From contig JACATO010001115.1 of NCBI GenBank assembly GCA_018389105.1, forward strand, positions 186,001 through 250,000: a DNA stretch of 64,000 nucleotides, given 5' to 3'. The notes below the pieces were generated by a model. The model did not search any database and had not been told where the DNA came from. It saw only the letters and a program-made list of their open reading frames with translations. This document shows positions 6,501 to 60,229 of this stretch, in pieces. Within the stretch, counting starts at the first letter, position 1; every line of letters begins with the position of its first letter. Made by a program: the position numbers and the translations under genes. This stretch comes from Nautilus pompilius (taxonomy: Eukaryota; Mollusca; Cephalopoda; Nautilida; Nautilidae).

Positions 6501-9500
6501 TTGTTACTACAAAAACTAAAATTTAAAAAAGAACTAAATTTTTAATCTCTAATTTAGTGCTTTTCATATATGGTTTATTACTAATATAAAAAGCCATTCT
6601 TAATGTACTTTTTACTACTAAAAATGTATAATACAGGGTGACTAAAGTCCATGCACAGCTTTAAACTTTAATACTGCTGATATACACATAGACACAAACA
6701 GTAAACAGCATATGAAAGCATAAATATTGAAGTTTTTTAATACGCTGCATTACAAATGTCTAGGTCTCAACATACCTGCCTTCTTTCATGATACATCATT
6801 CAGTCTGATCTTCCAAATGTCTGAAAAATCTAGTTTCTGAGGAATTGCATTGGTAATCCTGGCCTTAAGTTCAACCAGCAAATGTGGTTTTGAGAAGTAA
6901 ACAACATTTTTAGCAAGATTCCCATCAAAATAGTAGTTTAATGGGTGGAAGGGACAGGTCAGGTTATAACAAGGCCAAACAATCTGTCCATTTGTCAATC
7001 TATTTGGCTTGGAAGATTTCAGATAAAAATTTTGACATTCAAAGCATAGTGGCAGGAATCAAAATCTTGCTGAAAGGTGTTATTCCAAAGATTTAATTGT
7101 CTTAGCTCAGCTATAAAGAAATTCTGCAATATTTCAAGGTAATATTCAACATCAACTTTTGTTTTTCTTTCAAAAAAAAAAAAGACTTTTGTGAGTTTTT
7201 GTTTCCAGTCTTTGCATGGCTTTTCTTTTTCCCCAAATGCAGCATTTGTGTCAGTTAACTTTGCCACTAACGTAGAATGCTGCCTCATCAGAAAATGTCA
7301 GCTCATCTGGCAACCCAGAATTCCTGGTTTTTTTTTATTGAAACTGTTTACAGAAATCTAACCTCATGGTAACATTTAAACCATCTGAATCTTGTAAGTA
7401 TGTTCATGCAAAGTCACAGAATTTTGTGTACAGTTGACTGTTCATTGGATGCATGTCATAGTGATTTGTGGACTCCTATCAAATGCTTCCTAGACAATGG
7501 CTGCAGTTTTTTCACTATGTTAAGCCTCCCAGATCAAGGTCTATCCATCACTGATCCAGTTTTTAAAAATATTTTTCATCTAATTGCTAACTGAGTTCCT
7601 ATGTGGTGCATCTTTCTGGTAATGAGCAGTAAATTTCCCACAGCTATTATGAACATCAGTCCTGCTAGCTATAAAAAGTTTACCTTTTTTCTGCTGCTGT
7701 CATTTTTAGTCAGATTTCAGATATGAATTGAATTAACATAAAGGAAAACAAATATTTATTCTTTTGTATGCTGTTCACTGTTTTATTATGTGATTTCCCC
7801 ACCCCACACCCCAAATTATCAGACCAAAAAAACTAAGCAACATATTTTGTCTGTCTGTCTTCATAACTAGGATGTTATGCAAACATGTCATCCCAGTAAA
7901 AATCTTTGCCTGCAGTTGTAGTGGTTCAATTATTATTTGTCTGGTTAATGGTTTTAGAAATTGCCATTACAAGACAAAAATCCTAAATGCAAGATTCTTT
8001 AGCAAAAAATGTCCCTTTTTTAATTTCAGCCCCTGATAGATTGTTATGCCCAGATGAGAGAGGCAGGAGGGGCTGTCAACTTCAGGCTGTCAGAGACATG
8101 GCTCAGGGAGTATCAGGTATGCCTTTCCATCAGTTATTATACAGACTGCAAATGAATCATTTCCTCATGGTGAAGACAGTAAAAGAACATTTTTCTGAGG
8201 TTGACAAGTGTGGTAGGATGATATGCCATTTCAGACAGATGAGCTAAAAAACGATAGCCATCCATATAAGGTATCATTTTTTTATTACATATTGATATTT
8301 TTGGATTGTTATCCTCTTTGTTATTTTCATCACTACGTTTCAACCAGTGGAGTCTTCCAGTGCCCTGGCTGAGGATTGAAACTTTATTACTAATGTTTGA
8401 GCGCAGTACTCTTATCCACTTGGGTGTAGAGGTAGCCATATCAGACTTGCTAATTGGATCTGCTATTAGAGCCATGTACACAGCTTCCTTGATCTTATGT
8501 AAACGGAAATTTCATTCCGTAGTGGCCGATGGTTTTCCTTTTCGCTCCATACATATTCTGCCATTCCTGATTTTGTTGTTTCACCCCTGACAATGGTTTT
8601 GCAGTGTTCCTCAAGCCTGATCTTCAGAGAGCATCCCGTTTCAGCCTTGTAGGCTCTCCCACAGTTGCATGGAACGTTGTATATGCAGTTCTTGGCACTA
8701 TCCATTTTTGAGTCCTACTGAAAAGAACATAATGGAAATGCTCACATTCTGTGTGAGGACAAGATAGCAATGGGCTCCACACTATCACCTATAATGGCCA
8801 CTTCTTCCTCGTTCTTCAGATGGTGACACCAATCGTCTTAATAAACATAGCCATTCTCCTGAGAGCCTCCAGGTCTCTGAAGAGTTTATCCCTCACTGGT
8901 ATCGATGCTAGCCGCATGGCTCATTGGAGTCCCTCCTGCATTGGGCAGTCTTGGAGTAGGTGCTGAGTGGTCATCAGAGCTGTGTTACAGGGACACATCT
9001 CCAACTGGCCAATTTTCAGCTTGTTGTACATATGTGCATTTAGCCAGTTATGATAACCTGCTCTGATCTGCTGAGGTAGTGGTAGTTATCAGAGGTGTTG
9101 TAGTTTGAGTGCTCCTGTCTCCACTTTCTGTTGTAGATTGTCTTAATGACAGTTTTCTCATCACAGTAAGACAACTGCTTGTTCTGCTCTAGTTGGCCTC
9201 CTTCCTTCACCAATTTGTCAGCATTCTCATTACCCTGGATTTCACACTGTAAGATCACGGGTGTCTGCATGGCTAATTCCACCATGGAAGCTTTGAGGTC
9301 GTTTAGTTCCTTCTGTTGAGGCTGCTGGAAAGCATACAGGACAGAGAAGGCATCTGTGAAGATGATGACATTAGACTTTGTTCTTGGTAAATTGGCAGAA
9401 ATATCTTCTGCTGCTGTCTTTAGTGCCTCCGCTTCTGCCCGGAAGTTAGTGGAAAATTTCCCTGTTGCCACTCTGATGCAGCTGCCTCATCATTGTACTT

Positions 9501-12500
9501 GATGTATATTCAACCTCCATCCTCGGTGGCTTCAGTTGCAGAGCGGTCCATGCATGTGTGGGTCCACTTGTTCTCTGGATATCTGGTGCTGATGAATTCC
9601 AGCGTTAGGGCTTTTCTCTCCTGATCAGTCTGTAGGCCCTGGTATAAGCGTGTTGATAGTTGGGCGTTGGTCTTTATTCCATGAGGGTATCATCACAACT
9701 GGAGAAATTGCGTTTGGTTTCAGGATGATCCTTTTCTAGTATTTTGCTCTGTGCAACGAAGTTTAACCTCTTGAGTCTACCTTTCTTTGGCTGGCTCATG
9801 TGCTGATTCATGGCGTGATCTTGTAGCCTTTTGAATTTTGCTGCTTGCATCAGAACTTGGCATCTCTACTGTCCTCTAAGGGTTGGATTCCTGTAATAGT
9901 CTCCATGGCAGAGATAGGCTCATGGCTTGGTTTTGGACTCTTGAAAGTTTATCCATGTTGTATTTGGCTGCTGTTGAGCTTGCAGCCATACCATACTCTT
10001 CCAATGTAGAGTTTCTTCAGCACCTTCTGATCAGAGCCCCAGTTGGTTCTTCCAGGTGAGACTGCAATCTAGGGTTACTCCAAGGTACATTGATGTGTCT
10101 CCTTTCTGCAGTCCTTGCCCATTTAGCTGTAGTCTTACTCTGTGGTCAGTACGATAGGCTGAAGACAGTGTAGGTTGTTTTCTTTTCGTTTATTTTTTAC
10201 AAGCCATGTGCTTGCCCAGGGCTTGTTGGAACCTGTAGTTTGCAGTGGTGATGTGCTCTTTGCTGCACCACAGTGTAAGGTCGTCTGCATTGATGGCTCC
10301 GAATGAAGATGAGGAAAAGTGTAGGTGACAGGACTCCTCCTCCTGGAATACCTTGTTTCAGGATTCTCTTTTTACTAACATGGTAATGGCCACTATTTAC
10401 ATGGAATACTTTGAAGACATAGCTCTAAGAACTGCACCATTACAACCTGCAGCTTGGCTTAAATATGTTGATGACACCTTTGTCCTCTGGCAACATCAGA
10501 AGGATGTCCAGGTCCTACTGGACAATGTGAATTCCCTCAGAACATTGAGACAGTTCATCATGAAAAGAGAAAATAACAACCAACTCTCATTCCTGGATGT
10601 GCTAGTACAGTGCACAGAGATTGAATTGAAGACATCTGTGTATCACAAGCCTACATCCACAGGACTACTTCAACTCCTACCACCCATACAGTGTAAAGAA
10701 AGGCAGCATCAGGTTAAAACCATCTGTACCAATGCAAAGACCTACCACCAAGTGATGACCCACATAGAGAAAACATTCCTGAGAAACAATTATCCTTAAA
10801 GCTCTGTAAGACCAACACCCATTTTCAGTCAAGAGGAACAGGTAAAATCAAGTGCCACCCTGACTCTTCCCTATAGCGGAGGCTTAGCAATGAAAATTAA
10901 AAGAATCTCTGGACAACACAACATCAGAATGGTCTTCAGAAGTAACACCACACACTGTAGTGCCAAGAACTGCATATACAACGTTCCATGCAACTGTGGG
11001 AGAGCCTACAAGGCTGAAACAGGATGCTCTCTGAAGATCAGGCTTGAGGAACACTGCAAAGCCATTGTCAGGGGTGAAACAACAAAATCAGGAATGGCAG
11101 AACATGTATGGAGCAAAAAAGAAAACCATCGGCCACTGTGGAATGAAATTTCCATAACTGACAGGGAACCACATTATAAATTACGTAAGATCAAGGAAGC
11201 TGTGTACATGGCTACCTCTACACTAATGTCCCATGGGACAGTGCCCAAATGATAGTAATAAAATTTCGTGATTTCAATCCTCAGCCAAGGCACTGGGTTT
11301 GGCATGTTTATACAGGTACATCTTCGTGGAAGATTTAATTTTTTTTCCATAAATAAATTCAAACAGTGAAACTTTCATATATTCTAGATTCATTACACAT
11401 AAAGTGAAATATTTTTTTTGTTTCAATTTTGATTATGGCTTACAGCTCATGAAAATCAAAAATCCACTATCTCATTCTAATATTTAATTTCATAAGATCA
11501 ATAAAAAAAATTTTAAAAAAGGATTTATAATATAGAAATGTCAAACTTCTGAAAAGTATGTTCATTTATGCACTCAATACTTGGTCGGGGCGGCATGGCA
11601 TGGAGATGATCAGCCTGTAGCACTGCTGAGGTATTATGGAAGCCCAGGTGCTTTGATAGCGGCCTTCAGCTCATCTGTATTGTTGGGTCTGGTGTCTCTC
11701 ATCTTCCTCTTGACAGAATTTATGGGGTTCAGGTCAGGTGAGTTGGCTGGCCAATCAAGCACAGTAATACCATGGTCAGCAAACCAGTTACTAGTAGTTT
11801 TGGCACTGTGGGCAGGTGCCAAGTCCTGCTGGAAAAGGAAACCAACATCTCCATAAAGCTTGTCAGCAGACGGAAGCAGGAAGTGCTCTAAAATTTCCTG
11901 GTAGATGGCTGTGTTGACTTTGAACTTGACAAAACAGTGGACCAACACCAGCAGATGACATGGCACCCAAATCATCACTGAATGTGGAAACTTCACACTG
12001 GACTTCAAGCAACTTGGATTCTGTCCTCTCCACTCTTCCTCTAGACTGTGGGACCTTGATTTCCAAATGAAATGCAAAATTTATTTTTATCTGAAAAGAG
12101 GACTTTGGACCACTGAGCAACGGTCCAGTTCTTTTTCTCCTTAGCCCAGGTAAGACGCTTCTGATGTTGTCTCTGTTTCAGTAGTGGCTTGACACTAGGA
12201 ATGCGACACTTGTAGCCCATTTCCTGGACACGTCTGTGCGTGGTGGCTATTGATGCACTGATTCCAGCCTCAGTCCACTCCTTGTGAAGCTCCTCCAAGT
12301 TCTTGAATCGGCTTTGCTTGACAATCCTCTCAAGGCTGCGGTCATCCCTCTTGCTTGTGCACCTTTTCCTACCACACTTTTCCCTTCCAGCCACTTTTCC
12401 ATGAATATGCTTTGATACAGCACTGTGAACAGCCAGCCCTTTCAGCAATGACCTTCTGTGGCTTACCCTCCTTGTGGAGGGTTTCAATGAGTGTCCTCTG

Positions 12501-13040
12501 GACAACTGTCAAGTCAGCAGTCTTCCCCATGATTGTGGTTGTGTGTACTGAACCAGACAGAGATCCATGGTATTTATGCCGCACAAATAGTGATTTACTC
12601 AAACTCGAAATGGAATATTCTAATATTTTGAGAGATGTTTTTTCTAATTTTTTTTAGCTGTAGGCTGTAATTATCAAAATTAAAATTAAAAAATGCTTGA
12701 AACATTTTAGTTTACATGTAATGAGTCTAGAATATATACAATTTTCACTTTCTGAAATAACTGACAAAAAATATTGAACTCTTCCATGATATTCCACTGG
12801 TTGAAACATAGTGATGAAAATAACAAAGATGAGAATAACAGTCATCAGTAATTTTGTTTTGATGCACATCAGAAGTATCCGTCCACAAACTTCGATAAAC
12901 AGTTTGTAAAAACATGTTACAGATGTGAAAGTATTTTTCCTTTCCATTAACAGGTGCTTCCAGAACGAACACACCCACTGGTAAACATGAGTGGGACAGG
13001 AGGGTATTTGCTGCTGGCTACAACAGTGATCAAGTCTTAA
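569..13040 (+). CDS. TRMT6: tRNA (adenine-58-N1) methyltransferase non-catalytic subunit TRM6 (5' partial, 11 exons)
   Basis: TRM6 pairs with catalytic TRM61 to make m1A58 in the T-loop of tRNAs, mainly in the nucleus. Visible exons: 569-702, 1549-1655, 2600-2691, 3395-3478, 4009-4133, 4688-4733, 5105-5429, 5844-5929, 6231-6333, 8030-8116 and 12954-13040. All have GT-AG borders and matching phases. The joined frame gives 424 residues and ends in TAA at 13038-13040. Family landmarks in order: IGQPYGSKF, IDNRNLV, LIENSSTFQDKTEF, GDIRAG with VMETCLGLVVGAVMEKMGG, SLYGFPLNQL, an acidic insert, a basic helix (EKRREQQARK), KFHPTPIVLSLVDCVAPSRP, RLSETWLREYQ and MSGTGGYLL. The N-terminal exon is missing, and the C-terminus stops soon after the GGYLL motif, earlier than I recall for human. 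The last intron (8117-12953) is swollen by a transposon nest. Family assignment is very secure; exact exon edges were judged by eye. Confidence 0.95.
6640..7740 (-). mobile_element. Decayed mariner/Tc-type (IS630 superfamily) transposase relic
   Basis: Read on the minus strand, frame-jumping translation recovers transposase landmarks in the right order: LQDSDGLNV, then TFSDEAAFYVSGKVN (first catalytic Asp region), then FQQDFDSCHYALNV (second Asp), then WPCYNLTCPFHPLNYYF, where the usual SPDLTPLD-like motif is eroded. Stops and frameshifts break the frame at least three times, so it is dead. A start such as acagggtgactaaagtcc near 6634 resembles a terminal repeat of such elements, but I did not find its partner. 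It lies in a TRMT6 intron. Confidence 0.7.
8246..8710 (-). mobile_element. Penelope-like element fragment (C-terminal part), inverted
   Basis: The minus-strand frame from 8705 to 8466 reads AKNCIYNVPCNCGRAYKAET followed by a helix ending RLEEHCK. This is the pattern of the GIY-YIG-type endonuclease at the C-terminus of Penelope-like retroelements. The expected YIG triplet reads YKA here. It is a near copy, in inverted orientation, of 10963-11215. The flank towards 8300 also matches the 3' flank of the other copy in reverse complement (shared tttcaatcctcagcca). Confidence 0.75.
8740..10352 (-). mobile_element. RNase H-bearing non-LTR retrotransposon (LINE) relic
   Basis: Minus-strand translation near 10340 gives the reverse transcriptase stretch GGVLSPTLFLIF, then, after a frame slip, INADDLTLWCSKEH (the catalytic YADD-type box, here NADD). 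Further on come QLNGQGLQKGDTSMYLGVTL and, from 9471 to 9040, an RNase H-like domain with AEAEALKTAAED, VIIFTDAFSVLYAF and the end motif GNENADKLVKEGG. The tail continues as HMYNKLKIGQLEMCPCNTAL, a cysteine-containing end typical of this kind of LINE. Several frameshifts and stops make it non-functional. It lies between two Penelope fragments of opposite orientation. Confidence 0.8.
10353..11300 (+). mobile_element. Penelope-like element fragment with RT core and endonuclease remnant
   Basis: The open frame 10353-10799 carries the reverse transcriptase palm box WLKYVDDTFVLW and the following NNQLSFLDVLV motif, both typical of Penelope-like elements. After a stop, 10890-11252 encodes the downstream endonuclease-like domain (IYNVPCNCGRAYKAETG, then RLEEHC). 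The Y-I-G triplet of GIY-YIG nucleases is Y-K-A, so cleavage activity is doubtful. The copy is 5'-truncated at the junction with the minus-strand LINE at about 10352. The terminal part is duplicated in inverted orientation at 8246-8710. Confidence 0.8.
11333..12785 (-). mobile_element. Tc1-like DNA transposon with long inverted repeats, broken transposase
   Basis: Arms of roughly 150-180 bp at about 11333-11510 and 12610-12785 are inverted copies of each other (shared ttctagattcattaca / ttctagactcattaca and tttcaattttgattatgg / ttttaattttgataatta). Between them the minus strand encodes a Tc1 transposase in pieces from about 12530 to 11634: an N-terminal helix-turn-helix (MGKTADLTVVQ), then VLFSDKNKF (first Asp), FQQDLAPAHSAKTT (second Asp) and WPANSPDLNPI. 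Straight after NPI the expected E-N-L-W is gone and the frame resumes at SVKRKMRDTRPNNTDEL, so the third catalytic residue (Glu) appears lost by a short in-frame deletion. Frameshifts between blocks confirm it is dead. It is the right-hand member of the TRMT6 intron nest. Confidence 0.85.
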
Positions 13041-50700: not shown

Positions 50701-53447
50701 TCATTTATAATTGTTATTAAAGAACTATTTCATAATATCCAGGCTTGTAGATAGTTTAGCCAATTTCTATTTACTTACATTCCTTAGCATCTGTATTCGT
50801 TCATAAATAGAAAATAACCTACATACCGAAAACCTTTAATCACTTCTTTTAAGTCCCCTCTCTCAAACTAAACTAAATTAGCTTTACTAAATCTAATCAA
50901 TCTGAATATTTTATGATTAAATCTTTGAAGAAGACTATGTTGAACCTAGTGTTTCATTGTCCTTTCTAAAAAGAAGTTGTGTTAACTATTCAGTGTGGTT
51001 GGTCTTTTACAAATGCATTAATTTTTTCTTGGTATTGCATCTTATGGGCTTTTCAGTTATTCTTAGAATTTTATCCCATTAGTTTCATTACAAGATTTTT
51101 ACTTATAATTACTCCCAACCCTCCCTTTGAAAAATACAGTTAGGAGTTCATCCCATGGTAGCTAGTGATAAGAACAAAAAGTATTTATAAATAAACAAAG
51201 AAAAAAAATTCCTACCTAATATATAATTCATGTAATTGCTCTGTAAAAATAGATCCTTAATCAAACCAGAATACAAACCTGCTAAGAATTCCGCCAACTG
51301 CTCTTTTCTTGGTTGGTGGGCCATCTACTTCAACAATGGTCCGTCTAGAAAATTTTGAATTTCAAATAGTTATCATGAATGTCATATTAATTAATTAAAT
51401 AATACATTTCTATCCTTGATTTAAATATTAACAATTTTGTCTGTCATATATTTTCTATGGAAGCCCATAAATGAATGTCATGATATTATAATATTCAAAA
51501 AAAATTTGTAAACACTACAATTTTTTTTTTTTTTTTACCTGGCCAGACTAGCAATCCGGTCTCTTCCTCCTCGCCCATCACCTGGACTCACAAGAACTCT
51601 TCTTTGACCAAGTCTGCTACTAAAAAAACAAAACAATAACTATCAAATATGTTTCTAAGGGAGAAAGTAGGTGTGACCAAAATGGGTCTATCAAAAAAAA
51701 CTTGGTGTCACCTATTTTCAAACTTTCAGCTTGCTTGTAAATAGTTTGAAATCAATTCAATTCTATGTAGTATTGTTGATGCTTCTGCTTGTCTGACATT
51801 TTGGGGGTAAAAAAAAAGCTATGGCCCACAGTTTTAGATTTGTAAGCATTTCCTGACAGAGACCGTACAAAATACCAAATAATGCAGTTATTAACTGTTT
51901 GGAGGTGATCATTGCATACAAGTTGAGAAAAAACCTGCACTATCATTGTAACTTATCAATGACTGTTCACGTTCATCATCAATGGATTCATGTGCCACTC
52001 ACACGCAAGACTTGTAGAACATCCAACTTATAAACTGCACTTACAACTACATTGCATGTTTGCTCAAGACGTTATTATTATAATACAGTACTTCTGTAAA
52101 TTCTTTGTCTGAAATTTTCAAACAAAGACCTGCTCCTAAATAGATTTCAGTTTTTGGCGTAATGAATGATCCCAGATAACTGAACGATTGTACCTTTTGT
52201 CACTCACACCCTGCTTTGAAACCAATTGCTTTCTTATACTTGTGTTCATAATCTTTGTTCTACTATTGTTGACCCTTAAGCCAATTCTCTGCCACCCCTT
52301 TGATTTCTCTGAGCCTCATCCATATCAGCCAGATCTTTCTCTCTCAAATCAGTGTGTGCCAGTATTCTCATCTCGTTCTCTCAGCATTATTTCTCCTTTC
52401 CTGTTTCTCACATCTCACTACCCACTCCATTCTGATATCAAAGAGCATTGGTAATAGGATGCACCCCATACCTACCTTACAGCTGTTGTAACATTAAACT
52501 CCTCCCACGAAATTCCCTTCAATTTTAATGCAAGAGTCACTACTATCTTTGTAAAAACAAGTAATCATCCGTATAGGCTTCAAAAGATTTTTTTTTTTTT
52601 TTTGAATGTTCTATACATTTACATGCAAGCTATCAAATTCCCATAACTTTTCGCAGATTGACAGCCCAGTTACTTCTACAAATGTATCAAACTTATCATA
52701 ATTAACTTTGCCCATACATGCATGGAATTTATGGTCCCTATAATATATAAATCTCAGCTTTCTAACATATTTCAGATTTCCATTCAGCATTAGTCGGAGG
52801 ACAAATTCCACATTATTTTCCACTAGTAGTTTTAATTTAAAGGAACGAGTAATTTTATTCCTCCCGGACGACGAGGTGACCGAGAACGTTCCTATGACCC
52901 TTAATATTTTATTAAACAAAAAAAACCAATAATTTCTTTTTTTTTCCTGTCTTTTTCCGGAAGATATTCTTCTCCACACAGTGATCGAATTTAGCCGGGT
53001 TCTTCTACTACACCGGCGCATGCGCAGAGAGGAGGAAGTCCCACCCGTAATCTAGCCGACATTACGCATCGGGAACAAGATGCAAGCATTAATATCCACG
53101 TCGTTTCTTTAGTCATTAGTTTACTTGTACACACGCAGCGTCGTTACCCGTGCAGCTGGTGACGATCAACAGCTCGGATGCAGGAAAACAAACCATAGCT
53201 GCTTCACCAGGCCAACGCTGGAGAGGCAGAGAGAGAGAGAGCCGAAGAGGACCCTTTTTTTTTCTAAAATAAAATAATTCGATGCAATTTACTTAGGTTC
53301 CGCAGGATCTCTTCCAGTTAACTTCTTGATATTGTCGTCAACATCTTTCAGACTTTCTCGGGCCTTTTCGAGCTCTTCGTGCAGGGCATTGGCTCCACGC
53401 AGAATCTCCGCCATTTCGCTCTGGCTTTTTGACCGTGACGCTGCCAT
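35776..53447 (-). CDS. PNN: Pinin, 13 coding exons including four consecutive microexons
   Basis: Pinin is a nuclear-speckle protein tied to the exon junction complex and splicing control; in vertebrates it is also reported at desmosomes. Exons in transcript order: 53447-53293, 51619-51539, 51344-51279, 50451-50388, 48197-48100, 47287-47212, 45524-45369, 43505-43367, then microexons 40942-40926, 40612-40597, 40289-40269 and 38933-38913, and last 36314-35776. The CDS is 1449 nt, or 482 residues. Landmarks: LHEELEKARESLKDVDDNIK and LTGRDP (N-terminal domain), RRMFGYLLMGTLQKFRDEAR, a long coiled coil (QQEKEEIRKEREQLFQERRQ), then FIRTKARPHLFYLPKIL (core motif). The microexons add a basic stretch rich in H, R and K. 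The last exon is RS/RE-like with acidic EEGEI repeats and ends AIIEAGYD. It lacks the long Ser-rich tail I recall in human pinin (about 717 residues). An alternative start at 53414 (MAEILRG) fits the family equally well. Confidence 0.93.
37283..37310. repeat. TG microsatellite
   Basis: About 12 TG units preceded by CTGT units, in a PNN intron. Confidence 0.9.
38913..40942 (-). other. PNN: Cluster of four PNN microexons (17, 16, 21, 21 nt)
   Basis: Each is bounded by a pyrimidine tract plus cag on the 5' side and a good GT donor (three GTAAGT or GTAAG, one GTGAGT). Positions 40926-40942, 40597-40612, 40269-40289 and 38913-38933. The 17- and 16-nt exons only keep the frame when both are used or both are skipped; each 21-nt exon can be skipped alone. 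The two 21-nt exons are alike in sequence, suggesting duplication. Together they encode ELHRRF, LKRRH, KHKKIKH and RHRKRKR-type basic blocks between the core domain and the RS-like tail. Confidence 0.8.
39145..39300 (+). mobile_element. Old tRNA-like SINE copy
   Basis: It starts with an A-box-like TGGTAGACTATTGG and a decayed B-box. The body ends with cacatctaaaaaaaataatt followed by ctagtaaag. The body matches the minus strand of 59806-60100 (cacatctaaaacaaagaatt followed by ctagtagag), so the two are copies of one family. Limits are approximate. It lies in a PNN intron. Confidence 0.55.
41331..41827. mobile_element. 497-bp MITE with pogo-like inverted ends
   Basis: The left end caattggccctcgttata and the right end, whose reverse complement is cagttgaccctcgttata, differ at two of 18 positions. 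TA flanks the left side. The interior holds no convincing protein, although frames are open on the minus strand for 80-odd codons. It lies in a PNN intron. Confidence 0.75.
42567..42808. repeat. Three-copy tandem repeat of about 78 bp
   Basis: Units start near 42567, 42644 and 42722 with (c/g)caatactatccagt. They differ by only a few substitutions, a 3-base insertion (tag) in the third unit and a base missing from the first. It lies in a PNN intron. Because 78 is a multiple of three, an antisense frame repeats every 26 residues; that is a by-product and not a gene. Confidence 0.92.
43640..45300. other. PNN intron between exons 7 and 8
   Basis: It starts with a broken reading frame on + (about 43690-44330) that may be an old element. 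I could not match it to a family with confidence. The remainder is AT-rich with no visible coding. Confidence 0.3.
48200..50387. other. PNN intron between exons 4 and 5
   Basis: AT-rich, with no recognised exon. A short region near 48600-48760 looks repeat-like, but I cannot assign it. Confidence 0.35.
52140..52520 (-). mobile_element. Decayed LINE reverse transcriptase fragment
   Basis: Minus-strand translation gives GVRQGCILSPMLFDIRMEWV, the RT motif block of non-LTR retrotransposons (R-Q-G-C-x-L-S-P-x-L-F). It continues as IGLRVNNSRTKIMNT, matching the GLKIN-KTK motif that follows the catalytic box. The catalytic DD itself is not readable and stops interrupt the frame. It lies in PNN intron 1. 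Confidence 0.75.
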
Positions 53448-53543
53448 GTCGAGGCTCGAGCCTCTCTCTCGCTTCGCGGGCCGTCGGTCTTTTCCGCTCC
53501 GATGCAGTCTCACCGGAATTCCACGAAGACCTCGCCCCTGGAA
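53415..53543. promoter_or_regulatory. Compact divergent promoter between PNN and TRAPPC6B
   Basis: The start codons of PNN (53447 or 53414 on -) and TRAPPC6B (53544 on +) are only about 96-129 bp apart in a GC-rich stretch. The two 5' UTRs must therefore be very short or overlap. No TATA-like box was seen between them. An upstream in-frame ATG for TRAPPC6B exists at 53512. Confidence 0.65.
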
Positions 53544-56500
53544 ATGGACGAAGTCACGTTCGATTTTCTGCACATGGAAATTGTCAGCTACATACACCGA
53601 ACTGCTAAAAAAGATGAAAAGGTAATTTCTACATTATCGGAAATGCGTTAAAACGCTCACCGATTTCTTCATGTGGTCTCTCGTACCGTCGATGAATTTG
53701 CAGTAACCTGGTTATTTGCTGGAGGGGTTCTCTCCCTTTTCGGGATATAAACAGTCTTTTCATTTTGACTAATTTTGTTCCTAATATTAATATTAAAAAT
53801 ATCAGAAAGGTGAGGCCTCTTATTAACCTTTCTTCCCCTTAAGATTCTCTGATAGAATCTCGTGAACAACATTAAATCAAGTCCCTCGTGGTCAGCAGAA
53901 GACTAGTTAATTAGCTCCCAAGAGACAGTTTGTGTTTTTCTGTTAAGGTGGTACTGCACCAAATTATGTGAACCTCTGTAGTGGTGTGTCCACAGGGGTG
54001 GGGCAGGGGTCAGTGTTAGGGCTATTCTATTTAGGACATTGCCCGAACAAACCTCTTACCACTGAGACTTTTGCTGACGATACCACGTCCGTCGGTAGGC
54101 GGTAAGACAAAGGTTTTTGGTTGTCATGGACACGGGTACAAAATCAGCAGACTACGTTCAGGTCATCCCCTCCTATATGTTCATATGAGAGTAGGGGCCA
54201 TTTCAGGGACATTGCCCCAATTTTCAACGTGGCTGAAACTGTTGAACACTGCCTCAGAGAATGTCTCAAATACAACCCAAGGCAGACAAATTTGTTGTGG
54301 TGGCAGCAGCACTGTTGAGATGCTTTTAAAAGATGTTAAACAAAGATTACGATTTCCAAGGTCTTTTGTTGTGTTTAGAATACTCAATAAGTTTATATTT
54401 TAAAATGCTTTTTTTATACATTTGCAAATAATCATGGTAGAAGTGATCATCATTTTGAGTTGTTTAAGTCTAGAAGTAGATTTGATATTCATGAGTCTTT
54501 AGCTATCAGTTGGTTGGTGTGTGGGATAGTTTGGCTAAACAAAGTCTAATTGAATAAATGCATCTATAAATATGCTTGGCATATTTGGGTTTATGGGGAG
54601 TATTGTATAAAATGTAGACTTTCTGACCTTTAGAAGGCATTATATTAGTGAAACAAGTCACATCAACATATACAATTTGTGCAACTTTTGTAACTAACTG
54701 CAAACCGACACTAACAGTAGCAATTTCAGGCTAAATTAAATTTTCCTAATATAAATGCAGTATTTGTCCCTGGAATAGAAGGAAACTAGTCTAGCTAGAT
54801 TATAAAACTAGTCGGCAAAAATATGTACATGTACAGCTGCTATAATCTTTCTTGCAAAGCCTGCTCTATTAGGTTTTCCATTGTTTTGCTTTGGCTACAT
54901 GACAAACCTTTCATATAACCAAGTAACCTGTGACTTTGAATTTTATAAAAGTTATGGCCATGTAGTGTTAATATTTTCATGTTTATTTGTAACTGTGACT
55001 TAGACTTTACTTATTTTAAAAAAAAATGAAGCTTTTAAGATTTTTAAATAATGAGTAGTATATTTGTCCAAGTATGGAACTTTAAATCTGATACAGATGG
55101 AGGGACACTTACCACAAGTTTGAGTCTCTACTGTGTACATTTTTTTAACTTGCCAATGTTTGTTGTGCTATTTCTCATGACATTAAGTCTTAGTTATTTT
55201 TCTAAAAAAACTTTTTAAAAAAAATATATATTTCTGGTTGTGTTTATTTTTAAATTTCTTATTTTATAGGATATGTGTGTCTCACGACTGGAGTCACTTG
55301 GTTTTCGTGTAGGCCAGAGTCTGGCAGAAAGGTTTGTTTGTTTGTTTGTTGACTGCAGTGCCTAGTCTTAACAATTCAGTTGATGAATTTTTTACCAACT
55401 CCACTAAGTCAGGTGACCTTTTTGTGGATAAGAAAAATAATAGAAGAAAAATACTTGTGGCATAGTTTTTTTATTTTCTTTAAAAAAGATAGTACCTGTT
55501 GCTGTATTCTGATATCTTTCTTTAACATATTCCTAGTAGTTCTACCAGCACAGTTAGGTTTAGCTGGACATTTTTCATCTGCAGATCATATAAAATTGTT
55601 AGTAGTACCAAAAATAGAATCAGACAGACGCTAATAGGGTTGAGCATTCTAATTAATATGTATTGCTTATAAGCACTTTTGGCTGTTTCATATTATGAAC
55701 ATATTTTTAATGGAAAAAAAACACCAAACTTAACTGTTCTGCAAAAGTATAAATTAATCTTTTTACTTCTGGCTCCATATGAGTAAACTTTAGTATAGTG
55801 GATAAAAGTTTTCTCAACCACATCAGTTGTTGGTTACTTGTTGGAGTTGTGACAAATCTCAAATCTCAGTTATCCAAGCAAATATGCAACTCACAACTAT
55901 TTGATTCAACAAAACCACTTAAAACAAACAAGCAGTAAACTCTCAAGCAGCTGTGGAACAGGCAGTAATTATCAGTTAAAGCTTTCTGTAGGTCCAAATA
56001 AATGAATTCTTCTCATTTATAAATGTTTGTCACTTAATTTTTGTGTGTGTGTATGTGTGTGTGGATAGCAGTCAATTTTGGACAGCCTCTCTATCTTCTA
56101 AAAAAACTAGGGGTGTGTGTGATAAAAAAAATTGTATGTAGCTTTGATTTGATTAGAAGTTTAAATTCTAATTTCTGAACCAAAGAGGAACATTTTTATT
56201 GAAATCAAAAAAAATGAAGCAGGCACAAATTAGTACAGATTTATTCTAGGTAAAAGTAATACACAGCTAAATGATTAAATAGGAAGACTTTAATTTCAAA
56301 TAATTATATCTACCTACACCTACAATTCCATGACCAGTCTACAGTCAAGCACTCAGAAAATTTATTTACACAAAATTTGTCAACTATTAATTTTATTTTG
56401 ATAATATCAGCTACAGTAATGTATGCACACTTAAAGATGCAAACATTTGCTGAAATAAATTGCCTTGTTTGAGCAATGACCTATCTGAAGGTTTCCAAAC

Positions 56501-59500
56501 TGAATTTTCCAACTTAACTAGTCTTCGCAGGCTATCATTTTAGCCAACAAAGATAACTAATTGCCAAAATCAAACTGCAAATTAGGGAATCAGTAAGCAT
56601 GAACAGAACAATACCCAAATAAACTGGTAAGAAAGATTCCATGTCATTTTCCTATACAAAACTTTCCAGCAGGTGACATACACAATTGTATACTGCATCT
56701 ATTAGCTTAATGCACCTATAGGGAAATACTCGTCCCTAATTTGTAATGTATAGATATATAAACTCATTTCTAGCTCAATTGTTTCTGGCTATTAAAATTT
56801 ATAAACAGTTAGTGACAGCTGTAATGAGGTATGTATTGTAATATGTGGTGACTTATCAAATCTCTGTAACTATAAACATTTGTTTTATTGCTTTTTTTGC
56901 AGGTTTACTAAAGATTGTCCTAGATTTAAAGATGAACTGGATACAATGAAATTTATCTGCAAGGACTTCTGGACAGCTATCTACAAGAAACAGGTGGATA
57001 ATTTACGAACAAATCATCAAGTAGGTAGATGATCCTAAACATTTTTTCATACATGCATGTTTGTTTATATGTTAATTTTGGTATAAAAATATTATTTTAC
57101 TTCAGTTAATTTAGCTCATTAATCTAATCATTGCTATCTAAAGATATCTTTATTTTTATTTTATATTTCTGCACAACTGTGTTTGTTTTTTAACATAAAG
57201 TTACAAGATATAAACATGGATTTAAGAAAATTATTACTAAATTCTAAAAGCATTCAATTCAGATTTACTAATAATATCTGGCATTTAATTCCATATATTG
57301 AGATTTAAATCAATACAAATCTTTAATGAGTAATATAAATGGTATTTCTTAACAAAATGTGATAGGCAGTCATTTTAGTACATAGTGCATATGATATTTA
57401 ACTTGTTCTCAGCAACCATTTAAGTCAATCAGGTGGGCAGACTGTGCACAGTAGCAAGTGCTTACTGCATTTTTCCAAAAGATTCCTCTGACATAACACT
57501 GGTCAACAAGTAACGCTGATTTCAAATATACAATTAGATTTTTGACATCATGTACAGTTTTCAAGATGAGAAAGTTTTTGTTTTAGCTCATGCATTATAT
57601 AGAAATTCCAATTAATGACGTGTATGCATGTATTTCATTTACATCATGAAAACATACCTTTAAAATAAACTACATTATTCATTGCTGCGTAGTTCAGATG
57701 CAATATTTTATCATCTTAAATTAACCAATCAAGTTTTGTCTGATGAAATAGATATTTCAACATCTCAAATTGTCCAGTCATAATTGGTCTGATGAAATAT
57801 TTCATCATCTCAAATTCAATATAAGTATAACCGTTTTTATCTATTTCCTTACTTGTTTTACAGTGTTAACAATGTCAAGACAGTGTATAAATCCTCCTGA
57901 TGTGTTTTGTTTTGTCTGTGGACAATTTATTGTGAAAGCTCAAAAACGTACAACAACACCAGAGATCAAGAAGATTTATAAGCTATACTTTGACTGTCCT
58001 CTTGGAGATCAGGACAAGTTATGGGCACCACATTTTATCTGCTCAGCTTGCTCAAATGGCTTATGTGACTGGTTCAATAAGAGGAAGAAGTCCATGCCTT
58101 TTGCCATTCCAATGATATGGAGGGAGCCGAAAGACCATTTTAATGACAGTTATTTTTGCAAAGTAAATGTCACAGGATTTTCTATGAAGAATAAACACAA
58201 AATTGTGTATCCCAATTTGGATTCTGCAATGAGACCTGTGCCTCACAATGGAAGTCTGCCAATTCCAGTTCCACCAGATGATGGTATTGAAACATCAGAT
58301 GATGATGCTGACTGTCACGATAGTGCTGCTGAGGAAGATTATGTGGATGATGACGATAGCTTTGAACCTCAGAAATTTTCCCAAGCTGAACTGAATGACC
58401 TTGTCAGAGACCTATCCCTCTCAAAAGATAAAGCAGAACTGTTGGCATCAAGACTGAAGGAGAAGTATCTGCTAGAGCACAGTGTTTGTATAACTTATTT
58501 TCGGCAGAGAAATGTGGTTCTACAAACGTGTTTTTCTGTTGAAGGCCCGTTTTGCTTTTGCAGTAACATTGATGGACTTTTTGAATGTTTATCACAAAAT
58601 CATGATCCTGCAGAGTGGCGTTTGTTTATTGACTCTTCAAAACGAAGTTTAAAAGCTGTACTTTTCCATAATGGTAATTTGAAGCCCTCCATTCCTATTG
58701 CACACTCCATTCATCTTCATGAATCATATGAGAATATGGAACTTTTACTTCATGCCATTGCCTATGAAAGATACTCATGGAAAATATGTAGAGATTTAAA
58801 AGTCATTGGAATGTTAATGGGAATGCAGTCAGGTTTCACAAAATACTGTTGTTTCTTGTGTCTATGGGATAGTCGGGCAACTGACAGACATTATTCGGAA
58901 TCAAACTGGCAGACAAGAACATCATACCAGCCAGGACTGTCTAGCGTCAAGAATACACTTCTTGTAGATCCATGTAATGTCCTATTGCCTCCTTTGCACA
59001 TAAAGCTTGGACTGATGAAACAGTTTGTAAAGACATTAGGGAAGAGAAATGCCAGAGGGTTTGAGTATATTGTAGAAAAGTTTCCCAAAATCACACAGGC
59101 AAAGTTGAAAGAGAGTATCTTTGTCGGACCCCAAATTAGAGAAGTATTCAAAGATGTCAACTTCAAGACAACAGTGGATGAACTGGAACTGCCTGCCTGG
59201 AATGCTTTCAATTGGATCTGTGAGAATTTCTTGGGCAACAAGAAGGCAATGGACTACAAGGATGGCATTAAGAATCTTCTGAAATGTTACTCAGCAATGG
59301 GCTTGGATTTCCATCTGGATTTCTTCGCAGATAACCTTGGAGCAGTGTCTGATGAACATGGTGAAAGATTTCACCAGGACATTAGTGCTATGGAGAAACG
59401 GTACCAAGGCTTCTGGAATGACAGTATGCTGGCTGACTACTGCTGGACACTTTACCGTGATCAACCAGATCAGGAACACCGCAGGAAATCCAAATCACAA

Positions 59501-60229
59501 TGTTTCTAACTCTGTTGTTCTAACTTTGTCTGTTTTGTCTGACCCATTTTTTGTATTCACTCTTTGTAGAATGATAGTGATGATTTTTAACTCAATAAAC
59601 TCATTTACTTTCTAAAACTAATATGTCCTTATTTATTACGTTAATGATTTCATATATGTAAATATTTGCATGTATCTACTGAAAAACTGATACGTGCTGT
59701 ATACAAGTGGAGTGAAATTTTGAAATCAGCATGAAAAATTAGTCTAAAAAAGTTGGTTTGCATTCATAATGAGTATAATACATTTAATTTTGTTGACCAG
59801 TGTAATTTGTGGTCATATACAAGTTTAAACAAAGGAGATAACCTCTCTGCATTAGAGAGAACTGGTGAGGGAGTGTAGTGTTGTTTATTCTGTCCCTCGA
59901 GGGGCCTGGCACTTCTGATTTCAGCTGGGAAATCTCTACTAGAATTCTTTGTTTTAGATGTGGGAAGAGACCCATGTGACTGACCAGTGCTGAAGAGAGA
60001 AGAAGCCATGCTAGGGGAATAAGTCAAATCAAGCTGGTCCTGATTGAGGATTGAACTCGGGTCCTAAACCTTAGCAGTCCAGCCAGTCCTAAACATTTGC
60101 TGTCCTATATGTGAGTAAATAGCAATATTTTTGTTTTGTTTTTAGGGTGTGTACGTTTTGCAAGACAACAAATTCAAATTTCTGACCCAGTTGTCTGGTG
60201 GTAAACAGTTTCTAGAAGCAGCTCCCAAG
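53544..60229 (+). CDS. TRAPPC6B: TRAPP complex subunit 6B (3' partial, 4 exons)
   Basis: TRAPPC6 is a Bet3-family subunit of the TRAPP vesicle-tethering and Rab-GEF complexes in ER-Golgi traffic. Exons: 53544-53621 (MDEVTFDFLHMEIVSYIHRT), 55270-55331 (RLESLGFRVGQSLAER), 56903-57020 (FTKDCPRFKDELDTMKFICK, then DFWTAIYKKQVDNLRTNHQ) and 60146-60229 (GVYVLQDNKFKFLTQLSGGK). All are GT-AG and in phase. This covers about 114 of the 158 residues I recall for the human protein; the final part (YLAFTCGLIRG-like) was not found by 64000 and should lie to the right. The 53544 ATG aligns with the family start. An in-frame ATG at 53512 would add about 11 residues. Intron 3 hosts the transposon at 57497-59802. 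It is head-to-head with PNN. Confidence 0.93.
53990..54400 (+). mobile_element. LINE fragment, internally deleted
   Basis: The plus-strand frame near 54000 reads GVGQGSVLGLFYLGH, then ETFADDTTSVGR, the RT blocks around the FADD catalytic box with the stretch between them mostly lost. It then jumps to NVAETVEHCLRECLKYNPRQ, a C-terminal cysteine or histidine motif of LINE ORF2. It lies in TRAPPC6B intron 1. Confidence 0.7.
57497..59802 (+). mobile_element. Intact-looking DNA transposon with 13-bp TIRs and TAA target duplication
   Basis: The left end cactggtcaacaa (57497-57509) is repeated exactly in inverted form at 59790-59802. TAA flanks both sides (57494-57496 and 59803-59805), as expected of a 3-bp target duplication. 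The unit is 2306 bp and contains one uninterrupted ORF (57872-59509) and an AATAAA at 59594. Termini beginning CACT with a 3-bp duplication are typical of CACTA/EnSpm-like elements of the CMC superfamily; the placement is inference. It sits in TRAPPC6B intron 3. Confidence 0.8.
57872..59509 (+). CDS. Putative transposase, 545 residues, CMC/CACTA-like (uncertain)
   Basis: A single exon with no stop. The ATG chosen begins MSRQCINPP, just after a possible acceptor (ttttacag at 57856-57863); the frame is open upstream to 57770. Visible features: an N-terminal cysteine module (FCFVCG, C13/C16, and HFICSAC, C57/C60) that could bind zinc; an Asp/Glu-rich linker (about 136-165); a possible coiled part (170-200); then LFIDSSKRSLKAVLFHNGN (D254), WKICRDLKVIGM (D308) followed by CCFLCLWDSRA (C327/C330), LPPLHIKLGLMKQFV, and near the end NLGAVSDEHGERFHQDI and MEKRYQGFW. 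D254, D308 and a Glu around 495-498 are candidate DDE residues, and a C-x2-C after the second Asp is also seen in CACTA transposases. From memory, this family occurs as many uncharacterised copies in invertebrate genomes. A segment before FHLDFF seems a few residues shorter than I recall. Confidence 0.7.
   Translation: MSRQCINPPDVFCFVCGQFIVKAQKRTTTPEIKKIYKLYFDCPLGDQDKLWAPHFICSACSNGLCDWFNKRKKSMPFAIPMIWREPKDHFNDSYFCKVNVTGFSMKNKHKIVYPNLDSAMRPVPHNGSLPIPVPPDDGIETSDDDADCHDSAAEEDYVDDDDSFEPQKFSQAELNDLVRDLSLSKDKAELLASRLKEKYLLEHSVCITYFRQRNVVLQTCFSVEGPFCFCSNIDGLFECLSQNHDPAEWRLFIDSSKRSLKAVLFHNGNLKPSIPIAHSIHLHESYENMELLLHAIAYERYSWKICRDLKVIGMLMGMQSGFTKYCCFLCLWDSRATDRHYSESNWQTRTSYQPGLSSVKNTLLVDPCNVLLPPLHIKLGLMKQFVKTLGKRNARGFEYIVEKFPKITQAKLKESIFVGPQIREVFKDVNFKTTVDELELPAWNAFNWICENFLGNKKAMDYKDGIKNLLKCYSAMGLDFHLDFFADNLGAVSDEHGERFHQDISAMEKRYQGFWNDSMLADYCWTLYRDQPDQEHRRKSKSQCF
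59806..60100 (-). mobile_element. tRNA-like SINE copy
   Basis: On the minus strand it starts with a tRNA-like head (GGACTGCTAAGG, then a B-box-like GAGTTCAATCC) and continues into a body ending cacatctaaaacaaagaatt followed by ctagtagag. The body is shared with 39145-39300. The neighbouring transposon and its target duplication end right at its border (59805). Confidence 0.55.

Follow-up and report, generated by a model that had tools for sequence, protein, structure and literature searches.

Work by Kapitonov and Jurka from 2007 and 2008 is cited in PMC4411706 for Chapaev3, a type of cut-and-paste DNA transposon of the CMC (CACTA-Mirage-Chapaev) group that is distantly related to the RAG1 enzyme of antibody gene rearrangement. 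In the main published description, Chapaev3 elements have CAC/GTG ends, are flanked by TWA duplications located between A and T in all cases examined, and mostly carry genes made of a single exon (PMC4079192). According to the same source, Garfield_BM is 2,289 bp long and encodes a protein of 556 amino acids harboring the motifs C(2)C, LH, and H(4)H, Merrow_PM is 2,451 bp long with a protein of 562 amino acids, and Conan_ET is smaller (1,865 bp and 461 amino acids) (PMC4079192). We compared with these elements a transposon of 2306 bp located at 57497..59802 (plus strand) in a window of 64,000 nucleotides from Nautilus pompilius (contig JACATO010001115.1, positions 186,001 to 250,000; all positions below are those of the window). 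The family to which this transposon belongs is very probably of the Chapaev3 type, as judged from the published description.

The element is bounded by two terminal inverted repeats of 13 bp, CACTGGTCAACAA at 57497..57509 (plus strand) and TTGTTGACCAGTG at 59790..59802 (minus strand), which match each other exactly. A TAA target site duplication is present on both sides (57494..57496 and 59803..59805), with an A at position 57493 and a T at position 59806 outside. String matching in the window detected seven pairs of inverted 13-mers located 0.4 to 6 kb apart and flanked by equal 3-bp sequences, the element at 57497..59802 being the only one of the seven to display CAC and GTG at its extremities. 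Thus, inverted ends associated with a duplication are not rare per se, and the reality of the element was settled by the genome, in which the same ends, with 0 to 3 mismatches, were found in all 48 copies that were read, including that of the window. The element is therefore real, and the boundaries, the exact inverted ends, and the TAA duplication reported in an earlier note, made from the letters of the window alone, are correct.

To define the family, the genome (727,640,739 bp in 2558 contigs) was searched with the protein encoded by the element. The 83 matches obtained correspond to 80 places, one of which is that of the window copy and three of which were matched in two pieces. The copy number is accordingly at least 80, since 80 of the 8083 first-look candidates were scored and the search reaches the nearest relatives only. 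The 48 copies that were read comprise the 30 best ones, among which the window copy, and 18 from the remaining 50 places. Of these 18, 13 had been selected because their protein identity was low or their stops were numerous, and five had not. Ends were located by a 13-mer search in the former 30 copies and by alignment projection in the latter 18. Both 13-mers were exact in 31 of the 48 copies, and 42 began with CAC and ended with GTG. Identical 3-bp flanks were found in 37 copies (21 TTA, 14 TAA, 1 TCA, and 1 TAC). TWA was present on both sides in 35 of the 48 copies, with A and T also present outside in 31; considered separately, an A preceded the left triplet in 44 copies and a T followed the right triplet in 46. 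The length of the element ranged from 2283 to 2416 bp.

The first 30 copies displayed a mean pairwise identity of 97.1% (96.1–99.1) and a mean divergence from their majority sequence of 1.50% (0.61–2.05). A frame of more than 540 codons was kept in 11 of them, nine of which, including the window copy, had the usual C-terminus of the family. Comparison of the flanks indicated that two of the 48 copies (L089 and L090) correspond to one insertion within a duplicated segment, so that the sample represents at most 47 independent insertions. The family is thus young, homogeneous, and recently amplified, and the defined DNA transposon that the earlier note had proposed is supported. The same note had looked to relatives with other termini as evidence to the contrary; all 48 copies share the ends, and all are close relatives (DNA identity of at least 93%). 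Thirteen places with a protein identity of 74–89% also belong to the family, since their DNA was 93.2–97.5% identical over the whole element, and they appear to be frameshifted.

The transposase is encoded by a frame of 545 codons plus a stop, in a single exon (57872..59509, plus strand; ATG at 57872, stop codon at 59507-59509), followed by an AATAAA polyadenylation signal at 59594..59599 (plus strand), as reported earlier. The stop-free run extends over 585 codons, in comparison to a maximum of 198 in 30 Markov-shuffled windows, and the only two other frames of at least 110 codons in the element both overlap the transposase. In copies devoid of a 27-bp deletion present in the window copy, the protein comprises 554 residues. 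The window protein contains a C(2)C motif (C327-F-L-C330, 58850..58861, plus strand) and an LH motif (L375-H376, 58994..58999, plus strand), which are invariant in nine aligned copies. In an undeleted relative, L065, D308, C327-x2-C330, LH, H485-x4-H490, and E507 occur in this order, the H(4)H motif of the undeleted protein being HFLDSH (residues 485–490) with the Glu at position 507. Both histidines of this motif are present in seven of the eight aligned copies lacking the deletion, the first one being replaced by Arg in L078. In the window copy, H(4)H is not found between the second Asp and the last Glu, the first His being deleted. The window protein also contains HGERFH (residues 496–501), which straddles the proposed last catalytic acid, Glu498, and would count as H(4)H only if the last acid were Glu508. 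The N-terminus contains a zinc-binding-like region (residues 13–96, 57908..58159, plus strand) with C13xxC16, C57xxC60, and S93xxC96; the third pair is C93xxC96 in six of eight other aligned copies, and the order of the pairs is that of RAG1.

These features agree with the published description of Chapaev3, and it is on the ends, the TWA target, the size, the single exon, the 554-residue protein, and the C(2)C, LH, and H(4)H motifs that the assignment rests. The family has CAC…GTG ends and duplications in the A-TWA-T context, the window copy reading A-TAA…TAA-T. Its elements of 2.3–2.4 kb and its protein of 554 residues are close to Garfield_BM and Merrow_PM (2,289 and 2,451 bp; 556 and 562 residues). 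The C(2)C and LH motifs are present in the window copy and H(4)H in the relatives without the deletion. Garfield and Merrow differ from the family in having two exons, whereas the Nautilus gene has one, as do most Chapaev3 genes (PMC4079192). The affinity with the CMC group and the D…D-C(2)C…E layout advanced in the earlier note are supported. Its suggestion of an undescribed transposase branch is unlikely to hold, the ends, target site, size, and motifs being as published for Chapaev3 (PMC4079192).

According to another report, a complex zinc finger, the Chapa domain, is common to Chapaev, Chapaev3, and RAG1 (PMC4411706). In the best local alignment of the core of the window protein with mouse RAG1, D308…C327-x2-C330 falls without gaps on D708…C727-x2-C730, the distance from the Asp to the first Cys being 19 residues in both proteins. 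The chain D-x18-CxxC…LH…HxxxxH…E is shared, in this order, by L065 and mouse RAG1 (from D708) and was recovered in 1 of 20,000 shuffles of the core, with spacing ranges fixed after L065 and RAG1 had been seen. The window protein lacks this chain. For the last acid, NLGAVSDEHGE498 was the best of 335 window 11-mers against SIGAWASEGNE962 of RAG1. Since nearly the same segment scores higher against an unrelated stretch of RAG1 starting at D600, the pairing of Glu498 with E962 is a lead rather than a proof. The three N-terminal CxxC pairs of L065 align with the three pairs of RAG1, in RAG1's order, with a score reached by 32 of 2000 shuffles at gap costs 7/1 and by 195 of 2000 at 11/1, and a CxxC triple of this kind was found in 5 of 20,000 shuffles. 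For the N-terminus of the window protein, the score against RAG1 was reached by 119 and 169 of 2000 shuffles. RAG1 differs from the Nautilus protein by its chain of 1040 residues, which includes a RING finger, and the core gave no significant pairwise score. Transib elements differ by their target duplications of 5 bp, unlike the 3 bp of the Nautilus family.

Several results weigh against the proposed assignment or fail to add to it. The family is filed under Chapaev3 by description, and an identical 3-bp pair is missing in 11 of the 48 copies. The score of the core against RAG1 was ordinary, being reached by 17.2% of 500 shuffles at gap costs 11/1 and by 146 of 500 at gap costs 7/1, and the probability given by hhalign against RAG1 was 0.3% with the core and 1.4% with the N-terminus. 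Structure prediction from the single sequence had a mean pLDDT of 35.6 with no residue at 70 or above, and was uninformative. The window protein had no Pfam match at E ≤ 10. Four sub-stretches searched against Pfam gave hits far below the cut-offs only (PIP49_C, 0.1; DUF4428, 0.47; Barstar, 0.19), and nine members of the family matched only zf-AD (four of nine, best E-value 0.053), Barstar, and HAD_2 (one member each). Finally, none of the 19 matches to the flanks of the window copy in the genome was a joined empty site.

Other searches were also negative. Neither the window protein nor two of its parts had a match by sequence in the Protein Data Bank (PDB) at E ≤ 10, and a profile of nine copies retrieved only two FtsA chains from the PDB (E about 1). 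NCBIfam and Rfam searches gave no match. Relatives were found neither in viral contigs (whole protein and two parts), nor in bacterial and archaeal genome contigs (two parts), nor in plasmid and phage records (whole protein), all of these being collections of DNA other than that of animals. The end pattern was detected in 62 stretches of viral contigs, which were presumed to be chance occurrences. DUF1280 (PF06918), which is equated with Chapaev in one paper (PMC3985635), was likewise unmatched by the window protein at E ≤ 10, and neither this family nor Transposase_21 was among those listed for the nine members. The window protein presumably belongs to the Cys-rich animal proteins known only as uncharacterised. 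Its ends would tie a class of Cys-rich animal proteins, unmatched in Pfam here, to Chapaev3-type transposons.

Three other affiliations of the family were weighed. The earlier note leaned towards a CACTA/EnSpm element in the narrow sense, encoding a Transposase_21 enzyme, and such elements indeed share with the Nautilus family CAC…GTG ends, a 3-bp duplication, and a C(2)C motif between the second Asp and the last Glu (PMC12730594). We nevertheless consider this affiliation very improbable, since TWA was found in 35 of the 37 identical pairs, 31 of which had A and T outside, which is the signature published for Chapaev3, and since the size, the single exon, and the LH motif also suit Chapaev3 (PMC4079192). 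The window protein, moreover, matched no Pfam model at E ≤ 10 and, in particular, left Transposase_21 unmatched. The Transposase_21 model is included in Pfam; CACTA elements are larger and have no known preference for TWA targets. The TWA duplications would also suit a PIF/Harbinger-like element, as these elements prefer TWA targets. This reading is extremely improbable in view of the CAC…GTG ends, the C(2)C-LH-H(4)H layout, the lack of a Pfam match, and a second frame of at least 110 codons existing only as the two that overlap the transposase.

A new superfamily or a deep CMC branch, with ends and target resembling those of Chapaev3 by convergence, would be in keeping with the lack of a library match above any cut-off and with a comparison to Chapaev3 made by description only. 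We grant it very little probability, because the ends, the A-TWA-T context, the sizes of the element and of the protein, and three motifs of the undeleted relatives all agree with Chapaev3 (PMC4079192). The triple of CxxC pairs at the N-terminus also agrees, although with less certainty.

The window copy itself carries several deletions. In comparison to the majority sequence of 30 copies, bases are missing from it after positions 57510 (44 bp), 57579 (2 bp), 59301 (27 bp), 59551 (2 bp), and 59654 (8 bp). The 44-bp deletion (junction at 57510..57511, plus strand; bases 15–58 of an undeleted copy) is private to the window copy among the 48 copies. The 27-bp in-frame deletion (junction at 59301..59302, plus strand) is present in two of the 48, the window copy and L064, and eliminates nine residues. 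The first His of H(4)H, a motif that reads HFLDSH in most relatives, is among them. Four other copies lack 11 to 18 of these 27 bases. In addition, residue 93 is a Ser in the window copy and a Cys in nine of 10 other copies with a long frame, the tenth also having a Ser. The frame is uninterrupted, as noted earlier, but to regard it as clean would be misleading since nine codons and conserved residues have been lost in comparison to the relatives.

The window copy is most likely a decayed derivative that encodes no functional enzyme and would serve poorly as a substrate, since it has lost nine codons with the first His, a conserved Cys, and the outer portion of a repeat located inside the 5' end; the loss of activity is deduced from the sequence. 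An intact, active, autonomous element would account for the exact ends, the matching duplication, the uninterrupted frame, and the existence of a second copy of the deletion lineage. We regard this as very unlikely given the removal of the first His by the 27-bp deletion, the 44 bp missing beside the 5' end, and the presence of Ser rather than Cys at position 93. The label "possibly active" given earlier thus does not suit this copy, but may still apply to the family. L064 is located in a different contig, with flanks dissimilar to those of the window copy, and the two copies share 11 substitutions relative to the majority, five of which are in no other of the 30 copies. The presence of L064 elsewhere, with the same deletion and shared substitutions, indicates at least one transposition of an ancestor that already bore the deletion, which therefore did not prevent this lineage from being mobile. 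The simple reading is that the lineage was mobilized in trans by the enzyme of other copies. It is less likely that the shortened 545-residue protein still works.

The left flank of the window copy is unique in the genome. The right flank (59807-59888) is part of a dispersed repeat found in 17 other places with 76–86% identity, and all 17 matches start 2–25 bp from the insertion point. Comparison of flanks among the fetched loci revealed no empty site.

Inspection of L069, which has not lost the 44 bp, revealed that the ends of the family are bipartite. Inside each end, a 29-bp subterminal inverted repeat, identical at 25 of its 29 positions, is located at bases 46–74 from the left and 56–84 from the right, so that the 13-bp and 29-bp blocks are separated by spacers of 32 bp on the left and 42 bp on the right. 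In the window copy, the 3' subterminal repeat is complete (29 bp, 59719..59747, minus strand). Only the inner 16 of the 29 bp remain on the 5' side (57511..57526, plus strand), the 44-bp deletion having taken the outer 13 bp together with the greater part of the spacer. A 12-bp core was present at both ends with at most two mismatches in 46 of the 48 copies (exact at both ends in 34), at depths of 63 and 73 in 35 of these 46. Because the copies are so alike, their agreement is no evidence of constraint. Markov shuffles shared a 12-mer anywhere in 121 of 5000 cases and at a similar depth in 20 of 5000, the limit of 10 bp defining a similar depth having been chosen after seeing the result.

The difference of 10 bp between the spacers corresponds to about one helical turn. 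The two-block ends and their unequal spacers (32 and 42 bp) recall the recombination signals of RAG and their 12/23 spacer asymmetry. We consider it improbable, at this stage, that the ends act as functionally unequal signals similar to these recombination signal sequences, synapsis requiring that a short-spacer end be paired with a long-spacer one, by analogy with the 12/23 rule of V(D)J recombination. If this were true, the paired-spacer rule would be older than the Transib/RAG line or would have arisen apart from it. The unequal bipartite ends offer a cheap and specific test of paired-spacer synapsis outside RAG and Transib, and the presence of at least 80 copies of a young, homogeneous family within a single genome provides material for the study of end structure. 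Such ends distinguish the family from Chapaev3 as described in the excerpts of PMC4079192, which do not mention them. Titles in the literature provided no description of subterminal repeats in Chapaev, and a prior description is possible; for the first 10 bases of the end, the titles among the matches listed dealt with unrelated subjects.

For the fold, catalytic residues, DNA binding, and chemistry of the transposase, we infer the following scheme. The 554-residue enzyme of undeleted copies would presumably adopt an RNase H fold, with D254, D308, and E507 (undeleted numbering) as catalytic residues. In the window copy, the candidate acids are Asp254 (58631..58633, plus strand), Asp308 (58793..58795, plus strand), which is 19 residues ahead of C(2)C as is D708 in RAG1, and Glu498 (59363..59365, plus strand), which is tentatively placed in the register of RAG1 E962. 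The enzyme, carrying the N-terminal zinc-binding-like region, would bind the bipartite ends through both the 13-bp terminal and the 29-bp subterminal inverted repeats. The element would be cut out and then joined into an A-TWA-T target, leading to duplication of TWA. The window copy is probably a passive, decaying member.

The leader preceding the transposase gene contains imperfect direct repeats (57703..57816, plus strand), two of 48 bp that are 79% alike and a third that is partial, spaced by 45–49 bp. An 18-bp perfect palindrome is located within these repeats (57790-57807). The repeats and the palindrome are possibly regulatory or bound by the transposase.

Other sequences of the window include retroelement-like frames detected by eye at 9040-11252, with no Pfam match at 0.01, which we take to be RNase H-like on the minus strand and Penelope-like on the plus strand. 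A Tc1-like transposase is encoded at 11634-12508 (minus strand) by two overlapping frames matching HTH_Tnp_Tc3_2 (1.1e-13) and DDE_3 (1.1e-7), and is likely to be a frameshifted copy. An exon-like frame at 53292-53633 (minus strand) matches the conserved region of pinin (Pinin_SDK_N, 1.2e-10) and belongs to a host gene.

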